Shown one piece after another: positions 1,088-5,009 of a DNA stretch of 5,009 nucleotides; position 1 is the stretch's first letter; every line of letters starts with the position of its first letter. Under the pieces are notes generated by a model, which searched no databases, was not told where the DNA came from, and saw nothing but the letters and a program-made list of their open reading frames with translations. A program made the translations under genes and the position numbers. This stretch comes from Holophagaceae bacterium (GTDB lineage Bacteria; Acidobacteriota; Holophagae; Holophagales; Holophagaceae), in the NCBI GenBank assembly GCA_025353305.1, contig JANXQX010000222.1:1-5009 (forward strand). The letters run 5' to 3'.

Positions 1088-1285
1088 TCACCCCTTGAAT
1101 TCATCCTTGCCGTCCTTCTTTACATCTTTGGGATTGAAGTCTTCCAGCATGCGGTACTTCACGCCTTCAACATCCTTGAACTGGCCTGCGCGGATGGCCC
1201 AAAGCGCGAACATGATAAAACCGGCGGCGAACGCGACGCCTACGGTGGTGAAAACAATGATGAGGGTCCAGTGTGTGGTTTCCAC
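1088..1285 (-). CDS. CcoS-like small single-helix membrane protein
   Basis: A 65-aa protein with one transmembrane helix at about 7-29, followed by WAIRAGQFKDVEGVKYRMLED (29-49). This block matches the family pattern of CcoS, the cbb3 oxidase assembly protein: W, then GQF.D.EG...R.L.D directly after the helix. CcoS is about 50 aa and is implicated in cofactor insertion into the cbb3 oxidase catalytic subunit. This copy carries an extra charged Lys/Asp-rich tail (50-65). The GTG start at 1285 is set by an AGGAGG Shine-Dalgarno (1291-1296) five bases upstream. It is the last visible gene of the cytochrome operon, 56 bases behind its neighbour, with a palindrome just upstream. No oxidase subunit is seen here, so a role in assembling the neighbouring cytochrome b complex is possible but inferred. 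It could also be an unrelated small subunit with a chance resemblance. Confidence 0.6.
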   Translation of the reverse strand: METTHWTLIIVFTTVGVAFAAGFIMFALWAIRAGQFKDVEGVKYRMLEDFNPKDVKKDGKDEFKG

Positions 1286-1341: not shown

Positions 1342-1530
1342 CTAGTTGTTCGCTACCAGGAAGAGATTGTATTTCCAGGCAATAAGGAGGGGCACCGAAA
1401 GCATGAGGATGAAAATGATTAGGGACCGGGCAAGGACCCAGTTTTCCTTCAAGATTTGGATCACTGAGATTGGGGGCTCGGGTGCGGACCCGGCTTCAGG
1501 CTCTTGCTCGGAGTGTGTATTCTCTGTCAT
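1342..1530 (-). CDS. Small single-helix membrane protein, unknown function
   Basis: A 62-aa protein I do not recognise. It has an acidic, Pro/Glu-rich N-terminal segment (1-20), a short amphipathic stretch (ISVIQILKENW, 21-31), then one transmembrane helix at about 34-52 and a short tail ending VANN. There are no cysteines and no haem or metal motif. The frame could start at GTG 1542, but ATG 1530 has a GGAG (1537-1540) with a 6-base spacer, so I chose ATG. It lies 17 bases after the 44-aa gene and 56 bases before the CcoS-like gene, within the cytochrome b operon. Its size and layout resemble small accessory subunits of respiratory complexes; that role is inferred from position only. Confidence 0.7.
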   Translation of the reverse strand: MTENTHSEQEPEAGSAPEPPISVIQILKENWVLARSLIIFILMLSVPLLIAWKYNLFLVANN

Positions 1531-1547: not shown

Positions 1548-1682
1548 CTAGCTCTCCGCCACTTCCCCGAACATGCCCACGAGATAGAGCACACCGAAGA
1601 AGAAGAGGTAAAAGAGCACATATCGCAGCATGACGATGTAGCTGCTCACTTTGGGTTCGGCGGTTTTCTTGGGGGCGGCCAT
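1548..1682 (-). CDS. Very small (44 aa) single-helix membrane protein
   Basis: An open frame of 44 codons plus TAG fills the gap between the MvhD-like gene and the 62-aa gene. The product starts MAAPKKTAEPKVSS, then has one hydrophobic helix rich in Phe, Leu and Tyr (about 15-37), and ends MFGEVAES. A positively charged N-terminus before the helix suggests N-in, C-out topology. Two adjacent ATGs are possible (1685 and 1682). The AAGGAG at 1694-1689 gives a 6-base spacer to 1682 and only 3 to 1685, so I prefer 1682. That ribosome binding site overlaps the TAA stop of the preceding gene. The size resembles single-helix subunits of cytochrome bc/b6f or oxidase complexes; this is inference, and I recognise no family. 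Confidence 0.7.
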   Translation of the reverse strand: MAAPKKTAEPKVSSYIVMLRYVLFYLFFFGVLYLVGMFGEVAES

Positions 1683-1692
1683 CATCGTCTCC

Positions 1693-2109
1693 TTATAGGT
1701 TTTCAGTGGAGGCCTTGAACTGGGCCAGGGCTTCCAGGAAGGGACGCTTGTCCTTCATGGTGAAGAAGAACATGCCCACTTTTCGTTTGTCCGTGGACTT
1801 GCGCAGTTTGGGATTTCGCAGGCCTTCAAGGCGCTCGCGGATCATGATGTTGCCCGTGCGGTAGTGGCAATCATTCATGGCGCAGCCGACGACAAAAGTC
1901 GCATCGGCGCCATTGACCAGGGCCAGTTCCATTTGTGTGGGTTTCACCATGCCCGAACAGGGCAGGATGATGATCTTCGTGTCGGGATCATCGGTCAGCG
2001 CTTTGTGCGTATCCAGCATGTCGTGGATGGGAATGCTGCGCTCGCATACGAAACCGATGATGACCCTCTGCCTTTTTTCAGAAGGGACGGAGGATTGGAT
2101 TTCGCTCAT
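1693..2109 (-). CDS. MvhD/FlpD-like hydrogenase iron-sulfur subunit
   Basis: A 138-aa soluble protein of the MvhD/FlpD (methyl-viologen-reducing hydrogenase delta) family. Members carry a [2Fe-2S] cluster and relay electrons between a hydrogenase, formate dehydrogenase or NAD(P)H module and heterodisulfide-reductase-type or related partners. Visible signatures are FVCER (20-24), LPCSGMVKP (49-57), NGADATFVVGCAMNDCHYRTGN (66-87) and a C-terminal helix (122-134). Cysteines are Cys22, Cys51, Cys76 and Cys81. The usual second cysteine of the first CxxC is a serine here (Ser25). The length matches the stand-alone domain, with no HdrA fusion. ATG at 2109 overlaps the preceding cytochrome b stop as ATGA, indicating translational coupling. 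It is most likely the cytoplasmic electron partner of the ferredoxin domain of that cytochrome (inference). The family is sure; the physiological partner is not. Confidence 0.88.
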   Translation of the reverse strand: MSEIQSSVPSEKRQRVIIGFVCERSIPIHDMLDTHKALTDDPDTKIIILPCSGMVKPTQMELALVNGADATFVVGCAMNDCHYRTGNIMIRERLEGLRNPKLRKSTDKRKVGMFFFTMKDKRPFLEALAQFKASTENL

Positions 2110-3380
2110 TGGGCACCCGTCTTTAGAAGGGCCAGCACATCAGCCTCGATGGTCTTGGAATGGGTGTTGGGCAGTTCTATGGCCTGGAAGGGGCAGGCGC
2201 CCACGCAGATGCCGCATTCGGAACACCGGGGCGCGAAGACGACCGCGATGAGCTTGAACTTGGAGCCCGGGGCACGCTCAACCATGGTGATGGCTTCGAA
2301 GGGGCAATCCAGGGAGCAGAAGGTGCAGCCGGTGCATTTGGCGTCAATGACTTCGGCAATGTTGTCGCGGCGGTCCTTGGGGTAGAAGGGCGCCACAAAC
2401 AGCAGAATCGTCGCGCCGGCCAAGATGATCCAGGCCCAGTTCACGCCCACCTTCTCGATCAGGTAGTAGGGGAACAGGTACCAGGCGTCATAGCGGATGA
2501 CGTCGACCAGATAACCGATTTGAGCTGGTGCGTCCGAGGCGATGAAACCCTTGTCACCAGCCAGCACGGGGTACTGGGCGATGAGGTCGTTGGTGACGTT
2601 CACGGCCGGATAGACACCAGCCGCCACAAGGATGAACCCGAGCGTGAGGAAATTCACCGCGCGGCTGGGCGTCACCACCGGTTCGTGGAGCCGGATGAAG
2701 TGCATCCAGATGAGCCAGAAAATGAAGGTCGCGCCACCGATGTGGAAGAAGAAGAACCTAGTGAGCGTGAAGTCGCGGATGGCATCGCCACCAGTGAAAA
2801 AGGTCGAGAGTCCCTGGCCGATGAGCGGCACCGCTTCCAACCAATGCTGGGTCGATACCACCAGCGAATAGGCCCGCGCATCCCACACCAGCAAGTAGCC
2901 GGTGATGCCCACGAAAAGCAGGAACATCAGCAGCAGCACACCCGAGACCCAGGGCAACCAGCGCCAGGCCCGGTGGCGGTCCGTGAAGTAGACCCGGAGC
3001 ATGTGCAGCAGCGTGGTGATCATCATGGCCGCGGCGCCCCAACGATGGATGCCCCGAACCACGGCGCCGTAGGGAATGCCCGTGGCGGGCGATATCGCCG
3101 CCACCACTGGATTTCCGTTCTTCAAAATCAACTGGCCGCTGGCATCTTTCAACAGGACGGGCAGCGACGTGATGTAGTTCACCGAAGTCCAGGCACGGTC
3201 CAGGGTCGGGATGTAGTACATCCAGAGCATGATTCCCGAAAAGATCAGGAACCAGAACGTGTACAACGGCAGGGCCCCGTGGAAATACAGGGGATTGTTC
3301 TCCTGGGTGGTCAAGAAATTCAGGCCCTTTTCAAGGCTGACCGTCAGGTTCTTGGTGAGACTGAGGAACTTCTTGTACAT
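2106..3380 (-). CDS. Cytochrome b fused to a C-terminal 2x[4Fe-4S] ferredoxin domain
   Basis: A 424-aa di-haem cytochrome b of the bc1/b6 type with a cytoplasmic ferredoxin tail. Helices A-D are at about 37-58, 111-131, 142-165 and 207-229, with haem ligand pairs His112/His126 in helix B and His213/His227 in helix D, each 14 apart as in bc1. Conserved landmarks are RGIHRWGA (109-116), GITGYLLVWD (158-167) and TLTRFFFFH (205-213). Two more helices (about 243-260 and 314-332) bracket a loop with DAWYLFPYY (298-306), the equivalent of the Qo-site PEWY motif but without its Glu. Residues 349-359 (CxxCxxCxxxCP) and 386-396 (the same pattern) are two classical [4Fe-4S] sites. Six helices put the ferredoxin on the cytoplasmic side. 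The A-B loop has about 28 extra residues (75-103). ATG 3380 is preceded by AGGGG five bases away. It is the core of the operon, probably moving electrons between quinone and a cytoplasmic carrier. Confidence 0.9.
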   Translation of the reverse strand: MYKKFLSLTKNLTVSLEKGLNFLTTQENNPLYFHGALPLYTFWFLIFSGIMLWMYYIPTLDRAWTSVNYITSLPVLLKDASGQLILKNGNPVVAAISPATGIPYGAVVRGIHRWGAAAMMITTLLHMLRVYFTDRHRAWRWLPWVSGVLLLMFLLFVGITGYLLVWDARAYSLVVSTQHWLEAVPLIGQGLSTFFTGGDAIRDFTLTRFFFFHIGGATFIFWLIWMHFIRLHEPVVTPSRAVNFLTLGFILVAAGVYPAVNVTNDLIAQYPVLAGDKGFIASDAPAQIGYLVDVIRYDAWYLFPYYLIEKVGVNWAWIILAGATILLFVAPFYPKDRRDNIAEVIDAKCTGCTFCSLDCPFEAITMVERAPGSKFKLIAVVFAPRCSECGICVGACPFQAIELPNTHSKTIEADVLALLKTGAQ

Positions 3381-3388
3381 GCCTGCCC

Positions 3389-3760
3389 CTACTCTTCCAC
3401 GCGGGTCTTGGTATGCGAAAGATAGGCGACGCCGATCTCCATGAGGGCCGCCCAGACGAAAGCCCAGCCCAACCAGATCACAACATTGAACTGAAGAAAG
3501 GGGTTGTCGTTGGTGGATTTCCCCTTGGCCTCACGGCCATTCAGGTATTTCAAATGGGGTAGATCCTCCACCTTGGCGGGAAGCACCGCATCAATGGCGC
3601 GGTTCAAACCGGCGGGCATGGCCTTCCGGGCCGGCTCCGTGAGCGGTGGCCCATGAAGCACGTCGTGCAACTCCGTGGCGATGCTGTTGGAGGCCAGGAC
3701 GTAGAAGATCCCCAGGCCCGTGACCAGGAAGATGGTGCCGAATACATTGCGGGTTTTCAC
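3389..3760 (-). CDS. Two-helix membrane protein of unknown function
   Basis: A 123-aa protein I do not recognise. There are transmembrane helices at about 6-24 and 92-114, with a hydrophilic loop of about 65 residues between them. A basic N-terminus (MKTR) predicts N-in/C-in topology with the loop in the periplasm. The loop holds HDVLHGPP (32-39), and there are no cysteines and no CxxCH, so it is not a c-type cytochrome. The frame also opens at TTG 3766, which overlaps the preceding TGA, but the AGGGG at 3771-3767 would then touch the start codon. GTG 3760 sits six bases from it and is the better start. The stop TAG lies inside the ribosome binding site region of the cytochrome b-ferredoxin gene. 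Its position between two cytochrome b genes suggests a structural subunit of the same complex (inference). Confidence 0.75.
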   Translation of the reverse strand: MKTRNVFGTIFLVTGLGIFYVLASNSIATELHDVLHGPPLTEPARKAMPAGLNRAIDAVLPAKVEDLPHLKYLNGREAKGKSTNDNPFLQFNVVIWLGWAFVWAALMEIGVAYLSHTKTRVEE

Positions 3761-3762
3761 GG

Positions 3763-4071
3763 TCAACCCCTAGTCGTTTTGGTGGAGTGGGTGGCGTCGG
3801 AATGGATCATGAAGAACCGGTCGGCCCAACGTTCCAGCCAGGGCCTGTGCAGGGTGAGGGTTCCCTTGGCTTTCTCCTCGGCATAGACCACGATGGCAAG
3901 CGCCGCCAGGAGCAGGATGAAAATCGTTCCGGCGGTGATGATCGCCACGTAAGTTAGGACCGTCGGGCCCGCGAAGAAGGCCCGCCACCTGGCGATCGCC
4001 TGGCTCAGGAAGATGATCCCGAACAAGACTCCGGTCCATTTGCTGATCTGGATCCGCCGCCGGCTGTACAC
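3763..4071 (-). CDS. Small two-helix membrane protein of unknown function
   Basis: A 102-aa protein I do not recognise. A basic N-terminus (YSRRRIQISKW, 2-12) precedes hydrophobic segments at about 13-34 and 38-64, followed by a polar, basic C-terminal segment of about 38 residues (AEEKAKG... to TKTTRG). No cysteines and no cofactor motif are seen; His75, His90 and His95 lie in the tail. The open frame extends upstream to 4209, but that part overlaps the cytochrome b gene in another frame and reads as low-complexity Arg/Pro-rich shadow sequence. GTG 4071 has GGGAG (4082-4078) at a 6-base spacing and begins one base after the upstream TGA. With so small a gap, co-translation with the upstream cytochrome b is likely. 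A role as accessory subunit of that complex is inferred from position alone. Confidence 0.75.
   Translation of the reverse strand: MYSRRRIQISKWTGVLFGIIFLSQAIARWRAFFAGPTVLTYVAIITAGTIFILLLAALAIVVYAEEKAKGTLTLHRPWLERWADRFFMIHSDATHSTKTTRG
3767..3771 (-). promoter_or_regulatory. Shine-Dalgarno deciding the 123-aa protein's GTG start
   Basis: AGGGG on the minus strand, six bases before GTG 3760 and directly adjoining TTG 3766. The spacing favours GTG. The site lies within the last codons of the 102-aa gene, so the two genes are probably translationally coupled. Confidence 0.65.
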
Positions 4072-4072
4072 G

Positions 4073-5009
4073 TCAGGCTCCCGCGGCTTTGGACTTGGCG
4101 GTTGATGCTTTGGCGGCCGCGGCCGCCATTTCGGCATCCTTCTTGGAAGCCCAGCGCGAAAGGCCGATGACGATGCCAAGCACGATGCAGGCCAGCCAGC
4201 CGAATACATGCAGCTTCCAGAGTTCCATGCCCTTGGGGTGGCCGCTGGCCAAGGCGTCGGCAGGGGTCATCCAGAGGTTCAAGTTCGGCCTGAATTGCTC
4301 CAGGCGATCTAGAGCGACATCCATGGTCATGCCCCGGTTCGTGGCCATGAGTTGCGCCGCGGCGGTCTTGGCGGCCTGATTCCACTCGCGGATATCGCCA
4401 AAATAGTGATACAGCGTGTTGGCCGACATGGAGATGAGGATGAAGGCCACGAAGAAAATGTGGAAAGTCTCCCACCATTTCTTGCTATCGCGCTTCATCA
4501 CATAGCCCCAATCCTGGAAATAGCCCATGAGGAGGAAGAAACCCATGGAGTAGTACCAGAGTGGACCGTCGCGGTGGATGTCCGCGATGCTGTTGATGAT
4601 CAGGAAGCTGAAGACGATGAAGTAGATCAGCCCGCCGATGCCGATCCAGTTGGCGATCTGGCGCTTGCCCCATTCCTTTTCGGGACGCATATCCAGGAAT
4701 AGAGCCGCCAGCACCAGCGCGGGAACTCCCACCGTCAGTACCGTGGCCAGGTAGGGATCCTGCAATTTCAGCATGTGATACATGGCCAGGAAGTACCAAT
4801 CCGACAGGATCGGATTGGGCGTCACTTCGGGATTCGCCGGACTTCCCTGGGCAGCCGGGATCATGATCACCACCGCCAGGATCACTGCGAACACCGCGAA
4901 CTTGGCCCAGTTGCTGATGTTCATGCGCTTGAAGCCGCGGTGATAGACCCGCAGTTCGAAGAAGATCATGGGGATGAAGCTCAACATGAAATGGAATGCG
5001 TAAAAGCGG
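4073..5009 (-). CDS. Cytochrome b, C-terminal part with extra helices; 5' end outside window
   Basis: The frame is open through the right edge, so only the last 311 residues are seen (numbered here from the first full codon). RFYAFHF (1-7) begins what should be helix D of the cytochrome b N-terminal domain, so the ATG at 4987 is internal. Then follow a connecting helix (about 36-52), SPANPEVTPNP (56-66) with SDWYFLAMY (69-77) as the PEWY equivalent, and a helix ending in LDMRPEKEWGKR (105-116), the usual end of the cytochrome b C-terminal domain. Beyond the usual architecture there are further helices at about 150-172, 178-203 and 262-287, with His183, His201 and His267 in or at the ends of them, and an Ala/Lys-rich tail (290-311). 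The first helix-D histidine is present (His6), but no histidine lies 14-15 residues on; the next is His23. No Rieske or c-haem motif is visible. It is probably the quinone-reactive partner of the downstream cytochrome b-ferredoxin. Confidence 0.85.
   Translation of the reverse strand, partial: RFYAFHFMLSFIPMIFFELRVYHRGFKRMNISNWAKFAVFAVILAVVIMIPAAQGSPANPEVTPNPILSDWYFLAMYHMLKLQDPYLATVLTVGVPALVLAALFLDMRPEKEWGKRQIANWIGIGGLIYFIVFSFLIINSIADIHRDGPLWYYSMGFFLLMGYFQDWGYVMKRDSKKWWETFHIFFVAFILISMSANTLYHYFGDIREWNQAAKTAAAQLMATNRGMTMDVALDRLEQFRPNLNLWMTPADALASGHPKGMELWKLHVFGWLACIVLGIVIGLSRWASKKDAEMAAAAAKASTAKSKAAGA
4078..4082 (-). promoter_or_regulatory. Shine-Dalgarno deciding the 102-aa protein's GTG start
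   Basis: GGGAG on the minus strand, six bases before GTG 4071. It lies within the last codons of the cytochrome b gene. It supports the short form of the protein over the longer open frame from 4209. Confidence 0.65.

Follow-up and report, generated by a model that had tools for sequence, protein, structure and literature searches.

Cytochrome bc1 and b6f complexes contain two copies of one cytochrome b. Here we analyze a 5,009-nucleotide stretch from a Holophagaceae bacterium (GenBank assembly GCA_025353305.1, contig JANXQX010000222.1; the whole stretch is referred to as the window), which encodes a cytochrome b-ferredoxin fusion (cyt b-Fd), an FlpD/MvhD-like protein (FlpD), and the C-terminal part of a second cytochrome b (CYTB2). 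The system to which these genes belong has in common with bc1/b6f a Rieske protein, a cytochrome b with heme bL and a motif for the quinol-oxidizing (Qo) site, a cytochrome c partner, and an oxidase in one operon; it differs in having two unlike cytochromes b with complementary losses, a ferredoxin (Fd) domain replacing the last helices, FlpD, and no counterpart of b6 Cys35. Neither chain combines two bis-histidine b hemes with a Qo site, as CYTB2 is without the ligands of heme bH and cyt b-Fd is without the small Qo residue, and this sets the pair apart from ordinary Rieske/cytochrome b members. Gene order, co-occurrence, ligand losses, and cysteine conservation, all at the level of sequence, lead us to propose, with about even confidence, an obligately asymmetric complex III with an Fd-FlpD port and probably inward electron flow.

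Several described systems share parts of this arrangement. According to PMC4330944, electron crossing between the two bL hemes of complex III is still a controversial issue, and in an engineered Rhodobacter capsulatus-type bc1 carrying G158W in one half and H212N in the other, electrons are forced across it on the millisecond scale; as proposed here, Qo is blocked in one cytochrome b and the bH branch, with its quinone-reducing (Qi) site, is out in the other, but that laboratory construct is without an Fe-S port, whereas the present system would be natural and widespread. The anammox complexes Kuste4569-4574 and Kustd1480-1485 likewise have Rieske/b proteins and cytoplasmic-side Fe-S clusters, and a link to a low-potential carrier has been proposed for them, but PMC12954380 describes them as modelled homodimers that include multihaem cytochromes c and an NAD(P) oxidoreductase, whereas the present system brings together two distinct cytochromes b with Fd-FlpD and an O2 reductase. 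In HdrA2, the C-terminal part has the same Fd-then-MvhD order, with a flavin-carrying HdrA body where cytochrome b stands here. The melainabacterial complex III/IV cluster (petB/petC beside a type C oxidase; PMC6349859) has partly the same genes in the same lineages, and in the available part of that paper we found no mention of the Fd/FlpD fusion or of missing bH ligands. Within the open-access literature covered by our searches, we found neither the fusion pair nor a Rieske-partner cytochrome b devoid of heme bH described.

The window was compared with 80 loci, the best among 342 relatives of the fusion that a scan of named genomes with one ferredoxin motif had yielded; this set samples cyt b-Fd rather than FlpD or CYTB2. 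The split type comprises 52 loci (53 with the window), of which 51 encode cyt b-Fd and FlpD separately and one, L038, ends before FlpD; in 28 further loci (L052-L064, L066-L080), mostly from Proteobacteria, cytochrome b, Fd, and FlpD form one open chain. Going by the titles of their records, the loci derive from Holophagaceae, Melainabacteria/Vampirovibrio relatives, Chloroflexi, Deinococcales, Armatimonadetes, Bacillota, Nitrospirota, Delta-, Gamma-, and Alphaproteobacteria, and others. Aerobic Melainabacteria are reportedly treated by Soo et al. in 2014 and 2017.

The cyt b-Fd gene (positions 2106-3380, minus strand, 424 amino acids) encodes cytochrome b helices A-F, with ligands for both b hemes, and a ferredoxin domain predicted to hold two [4Fe-4S] clusters; it is followed by FlpD (1693-2109, minus strand, 138 amino acids), which has four conserved cysteines (22, 51, 76, 81). 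A sequence-only reading had given the coordinates and strand of this pair correctly, along with its ATGA overlap, in which the FlpD start and the cyt b-Fd stop share four bases. It had also described a four-histidine cytochrome b with two C-terminal [4Fe-4S] motifs, and this description holds: His 112, 126, 213, and 227, together with Cys 349, 352, 355, 359, 386, 389, 392, and 396, are invariant in 58/58 aligned sequences, and the protein matches the Pfam models Cytochrome_B (1.4e-25), Fer4_7 (1.8e-8), and other Fer4 models. All four heme histidines are present in 81/81 cyt b-Fd and in 34/34 other cytochromes b, 21 of them distinct.

The two cytochromes b diverge at the Qo glycine position, which we take to be bovine Gly143 and R. 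capsulatus Gly158 and which was located by eye through the b6 alignment. In cyt b-Fd it is occupied by Leu, Ile, or Val in 80 of 81 proteins (split type: Leu 32, Ile 20, Val 1; one-chain type: Ile 14, Val 13, Ala 1), and in the control cytochromes b by Ala, Ser, or Gly in 21/21, the 34 controls having been reduced to this number by dropping duplicate stretches. CYTB2 has Trp-Ala there in 46/46 loci and in 120/120 database homologues (the best 120 of 824, six of which are identical to locus proteins). The Asp of the PEWY-like motif occurs in 80/81 cyt b-Fd and in 47/47 CYTB2.

The heme ligands of CYTB2 were counted over the loci with matches of at most 100 bits left out (L048, L073) and with the partial proteins of L001 and the window counted as gaps. 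The bL histidines are kept in 46/46 and 47/47 proteins, whereas the first bH ligand position is Arg in 35 and Lys in 11 of 46, and the second is Tyr in 36, Arg in 7, His in 2, Trp in 1, and Phe in 1 of 47. The same 120 database homologues have His at the bL positions in 119/119 and 120/120, Arg (95), Lys (24), or one gap at the first bH position, and Tyr (96), Arg (23), or Trp (1) at the second. The CYTB2 gene of the window (4073-5008, minus strand), which the sequence-only reading had not described, is cut by the window edge at its 5' side; it has Arg at the second bH position and Asp as the Qo acid (SDWY), and its full-length counterpart in a close relative (L002:7662-9308) encodes 548 amino acids. 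Judged by these residues, CYTB2 seems to have an intact Qo and cyt b-Fd a filled one, and for the ligands of heme bH the situation looks reversed. No cysteine for a covalent b6f-type heme cn occurs at the b6 Cys35 position, which is aromatic in 53/53 split-type cyt b-Fd and is Q, S, T, K, A, M, or V, with two gaps, in 42 CYTB2. The CYTB2 proteins of L040 and L049 combine His at the second bH position with Arg or Lys at the first and are possible intermediate forms.

Operon context was read from the related loci, where the order is CcoN, CcoO, cytochrome c, Rieske, CYTB2, small proteins, cyt b-Fd, and FlpD. Upstream in L002 (96% identity) are genes for CcoN (COX1, 2.1e-86), a FixO/cytochrome c protein, a dihaem cytochrome c, a Rieske protein with the motif CPHLGC...CPCH (Pfam Rieske E 0.006, score 16.9, below the cut-off), and CYTB2; L042, from Vampirovibrio chlorellavorus NCIMB 11383, has the same gene set, with a Rieske protein slightly above the Pfam cut-off (20.5 versus 20.3). 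Core genes were counted by tblastn, gene calling having missed cores in L004, L005, L040, L050, L051, L057, and L071. Among the 52 split-type loci (the window itself not counted), CYTB2 is found in 48, with L048 represented by a weak fragment, Rieske in 45, and CcoN and CcoO in 35 each. Loci missing CYTB2 have at most 1.3 kilobases (kb) upstream and those missing Rieske at most 2.3 kb; 15 of the 17 loci without CcoN have at most 4.2 kb, the others being L050 (6.2 kb) and L051 (10 kb). The window is best read as the distal half of a complex III/IV operon, in which cyt b-Fd and FlpD are a subunit pair whose likely partner is CYTB2.

Co-occurrence across genomes is consistent with this partnership. 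Of 77 genomes sampled from the class of the Vampirovibrio genome G016, cyt b-Fd is present in 49 (E < 1e-90) and CYTB2 in 48, and all 48 genomes with CYTB2 also carry cyt b-Fd; these CYTB2 genes were identified by homology, and loss of the bH ligands was established for the locus and database sets. The exception, G140, has cyt b-Fd without CYTB2, 422 bases from a contig start. The remaining 28 genomes have neither, with G130 and G149 matching cyt b-Fd weakly (36%, residues 22-207).

These data suggest that CYTB2 and cyt b-Fd probably form a heterodimer and, with nearly the same confidence, that electrons pass from bL to bL between the chains. In our proposed mechanism, CYTB2 would oxidize quinol at Qo and send one electron through the Rieske center and cytochrome c to the cbb3 oxidase. 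The other electron would enter heme bL of CYTB2 and, because this chain is without a usable heme bH, would have to hop to heme bL and then to heme bH of cyt b-Fd; since the Qo pocket of cyt b-Fd appears filled, one Qo and one bH would be shared by two different chains. A CYTB2 homodimer would offer the bL electron no exit, so contact with cyt b-Fd would be required on logic. Fd, which follows helix F on the cytoplasmic side, would together with FlpD be the port between heme bH and a soluble carrier. If flow is inward, a direction to which we assign a little less than even confidence, reduced ferredoxin or another low-potential cytoplasmic donor would feed electrons into heme bH by way of FlpD and the two [4Fe-4S] clusters, and these electrons would reduce quinone there together with the one arriving from bL. 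Such flow would be a built-in version of the ferredoxin-assisted Q cycle, a proposal for cyclic electron flow through b6f.

The electron route between membrane and cytoplasm that the sequence-only reading had drawn through the pair is well supported. The gene pair is conserved in relatives, FlpD adjoining or being fused to cyt b-Fd in 79/80 loci (the exception, L038, stops at a contig edge), and the 28 natural one-chain fusions tie FlpD to cyt b-Fd. The Fd domain follows helix F, whose end lies on the cytoplasmic side in textbook cytochrome b topology; Fd is thus placed in the cytoplasm rather than the periplasm. The window's cyt b-Fd has a predicted fold with a predicted local distance difference test score (pLDDT) of 90.1 and a predicted template modeling score (pTM) of 0.83. 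Contact between FlpD and cyt b-Fd was examined in a single natural fusion, the one-chain protein of L061 (495 amino acids), which folds confidently (pLDDT 93.8, pTM 0.91). The structure matches listed by Foldseek and VIA all come from the cytochrome b domain, the identity of Fd and FlpD resting on sequence, and the best match among solved chains is b6 for both cyt b-Fd and CYTB2.

FlpD matches PF02662 (E 5.6e-19; 68.8 bits versus a cut-off of 22.3), and Mesoterricola sediminis is among the organisms recorded with a FlpD of this family. Its Cys 51, 76, and 81 (window numbering) are cysteine in 72/72 family domains and Cys 22 in the 53/53 domains aligned there, with 19 more gapped; compared with the solved MvhD 5odc_D, it is without two further cysteines of the CCxxC stretch. 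In one fusion, P0079, the FlpD part is apparently, by eye, without the conserved cysteines. Fd and FlpD together align, across two genes, to positions 570-774 of HdrA2, and the module therefore looks like the HdrA2 C terminus mounted on a cytochrome b. The best reading of Fd and FlpD is a cytoplasmic electron port, whose cluster content we predict from these motifs.

MvhD/FlpD proteins relay electrons to heterodisulfide reductase (Hdr) or related modules, but the FlpD studied here hardly serves Hdr, as an HdrA body is among the best matches listed in 2/22 genomes (G014 and G021; many genomes are drafts). This FlpD is the sole PF02662 match in 21/22 genomes; G014, the genome of L040, is the only one of the 22 with three FlpD matches and also has an HdrA body. 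Inspection of the neighbors in relatives recovered Rieske proteins and cytochromes c, but no Hdr, hydrogenase, or NADH partner conserved across loci, as judged by an HdrA2 profile and by eye from neighbor clusters present in at least five loci. By eye, these clusters also show no conserved soluble partner gene and no NAD(P) oxidoreductase subunit, nor is the latter among the Pfam-scanned operon genes of L002 and L042. The nearest partner candidate is a flavoprotein (FAD_binding_2, Succ_DH_flav_C) with a small Fer4 protein, adenylylsulfate-reductase-like by eye, encoded beside the operon on the opposite strand in seven loci (L011:14397-16542 and six others); this pair could be the soluble partner or could be there by chance.

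The one-chain relatives occur in a different setting. A ba3-type COX1 match lies near 25/28 of these loci, three of the 25 matches being short fragments at contig starts (L060, L063, L071), and in L066 genes for COX2, COX1, and SCO1 precede the fusion. Queries with the split-type Rieske and CYTB2 gave no match beside one-chain loci except a 67-bit CYTB2 match in L073. The one-chain form appears to be an oxidase-linked module, of which we found no description. Among the one-chain loci, a SCO1-like family occurs in 24 and a hemerythrin family in 12, both names being taken from scanned examples. A conserved protein of about 165 amino acids is found at 20 one-chain loci (e.g., L077:5211-5714), with one transmembrane (TM) helix followed by a probable outer-face domain that carries the motif CR..NMR..C.RER; 15 of the 20 loci encode it as a separate gene, in the other 5 it extends the fusion at the C terminus, and the two examples scanned (L077, L054) gave no Pfam match.

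Several observations weigh against an obligately asymmetric complex III with inward flow. The one-chain relatives keep both bL ligands with no Rieske or CYTB2 partner found nearby. In CYTB2, Lys or Tyr could yet serve as a heme ligand, and His is kept at the second bH position in 2/47 of these proteins. No CcoN or CcoO match turned up in the 10 kb upstream in L051. The system is patchy, since in the family of G003 (the genome of L007, Acidobacteria) cyt b-Fd proper occurs in 15/77 genomes (E < 1e-200), 71/77 having matches at E ≤ 0.001. Inspection by eye recognized no Qi-site signature in cyt b-Fd, and the aromatic residue at the Cys35 position may mean that there is no Qi, which would favor outward flow. 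As to the donor, POR_N is present in 18, a NuoH-family protein in 20, and NuoF in 9 of 20 carrier genomes (NuoF in 6/17 split-type and 3/3 one-chain genomes; several genomes are drafts), which fits a ferredoxin-based metabolism, but 14 control genomes also have POR_N (10), NuoH (11), and NuoF (9), so these genes speak weakly for direction.

The strongest rival keeps the same heterodimer and reverses the port: quinol would be bifurcated outward, the bL-bL-bH electron leaving through Fd-FlpD to a low-potential carrier at the expense of the electron that goes to O2. This fits the failure to recognize a Qi site, O2 would be an energetically generous high-potential sink, and PMC12954380 proposes this mode of action for anammox Rieske/b complexes that have a cytoplasmic NAD(P) reductase. 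However, if the POR_N proteins of 18/20 carriers are ferredoxin-reducing 2-oxoacid oxidoreductases, reduced ferredoxin would already be supplied; the one-chain relatives, beside which no Rieske was found, could hardly bifurcate; and no obvious acceptor gene was seen by eye near most loci. We consider outward bifurcation unlikely, and we are slightly more doubtful of the full combination in which a natural obligate heterodimer in aerobes has compulsory bL-bL crossing and O2-driven quinol bifurcation outward through Fd-FlpD.

A plain asymmetric complex III, with Qo on CYTB2, Qi on cyt b-Fd, and a structural or regulatory Fd and FlpD, seems improbable to us: the complementarity of the two cytochromes would by itself account for the operon, but a redox-silent part would not be expected to retain, as is seen over many phyla, the eight Fd cysteines (58/58) and those of FlpD. 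Even less probable is an independent homodimeric cyt b-Fd-FlpD module, either a NarI-like FlpD-quinone or a transmembrane electron module, sharing its operon with a bH-less complex III, since, although one-chain versions keep the ligands of both hemes with no CYTB2 or Rieske found nearby, a CYTB2 homodimer would strand its bL electrons and each of the 48 CYTB2-bearing genomes also encodes cyt b-Fd.

In a tree, cyt b-Fd, CYTB2, and other cytochromes b form separate groups (supports 0.93, 0.999, and 0.98), and the split-type group alone has a support of 0.24; the tree is without an outgroup and therefore silent on the order of events. Cyt b-Fd also matches COX15-CtaA weakly (E 0.016), but we discarded a link to heme A synthase, since the oxidase of split-type operons is CcoN/CcoO, which uses no heme A. 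The ExtP/ExtQ cytochromes of selenite/tellurite operons were likewise rejected, with scores below the NCBIfam equivalog cut-offs (ExtP 123.6 bits versus 290; ExtQ 27.6 versus 150, the latter obtained with a truncated protein).

The minus-strand cluster of the window runs, from right to left, through the CYTB2 part, two small membrane proteins, cyt b-Fd, FlpD, and further small membrane proteins to a CcoS/FixS-like gene. S104 (3763-4071, minus strand; GTG start picked by eye) has one or two TM helices and belongs to a blastp cluster present in 35 split-type loci. S125 (3389-3766, minus strand) is a TM protein of 125 amino acids whose cluster is present in six loci, other small two-TM proteins occupying its place elsewhere. 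Downstream of FlpD are single-TM proteins of 45 (1548-1685, minus strand) and 62 amino acids (1342-1530, minus strand). The last gene (1088-1285, minus strand) encodes a CcoS/FixS-like small protein of the cbb3 oxidase assembly family, above the Pfam cut-off and slightly below that of NCBIfam, with a cluster present in 28 split-type loci. On the plus strand, a Maf family gene (477-1064; Pfam 2.3e-59) and a GNAT acetyltransferase gene (28-480; Pfam 1.6e-7) seem unrelated to this cluster.

Electron crossing between bL hemes has long been argued over using engineered dimers. If the asymmetric complex III proposed here is correct, nature would have made this crossing obligatory in several phyla, so that it would be testable without engineering. 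Complex III would moreover gain a cytoplasmic ferredoxin/FlpD port, and with it a direct link from low-potential metabolism to O2 respiration that would parallel, on the respiratory side, the ferredoxin-assisted Q cycle under discussion for cyclic flow in photosynthesis.
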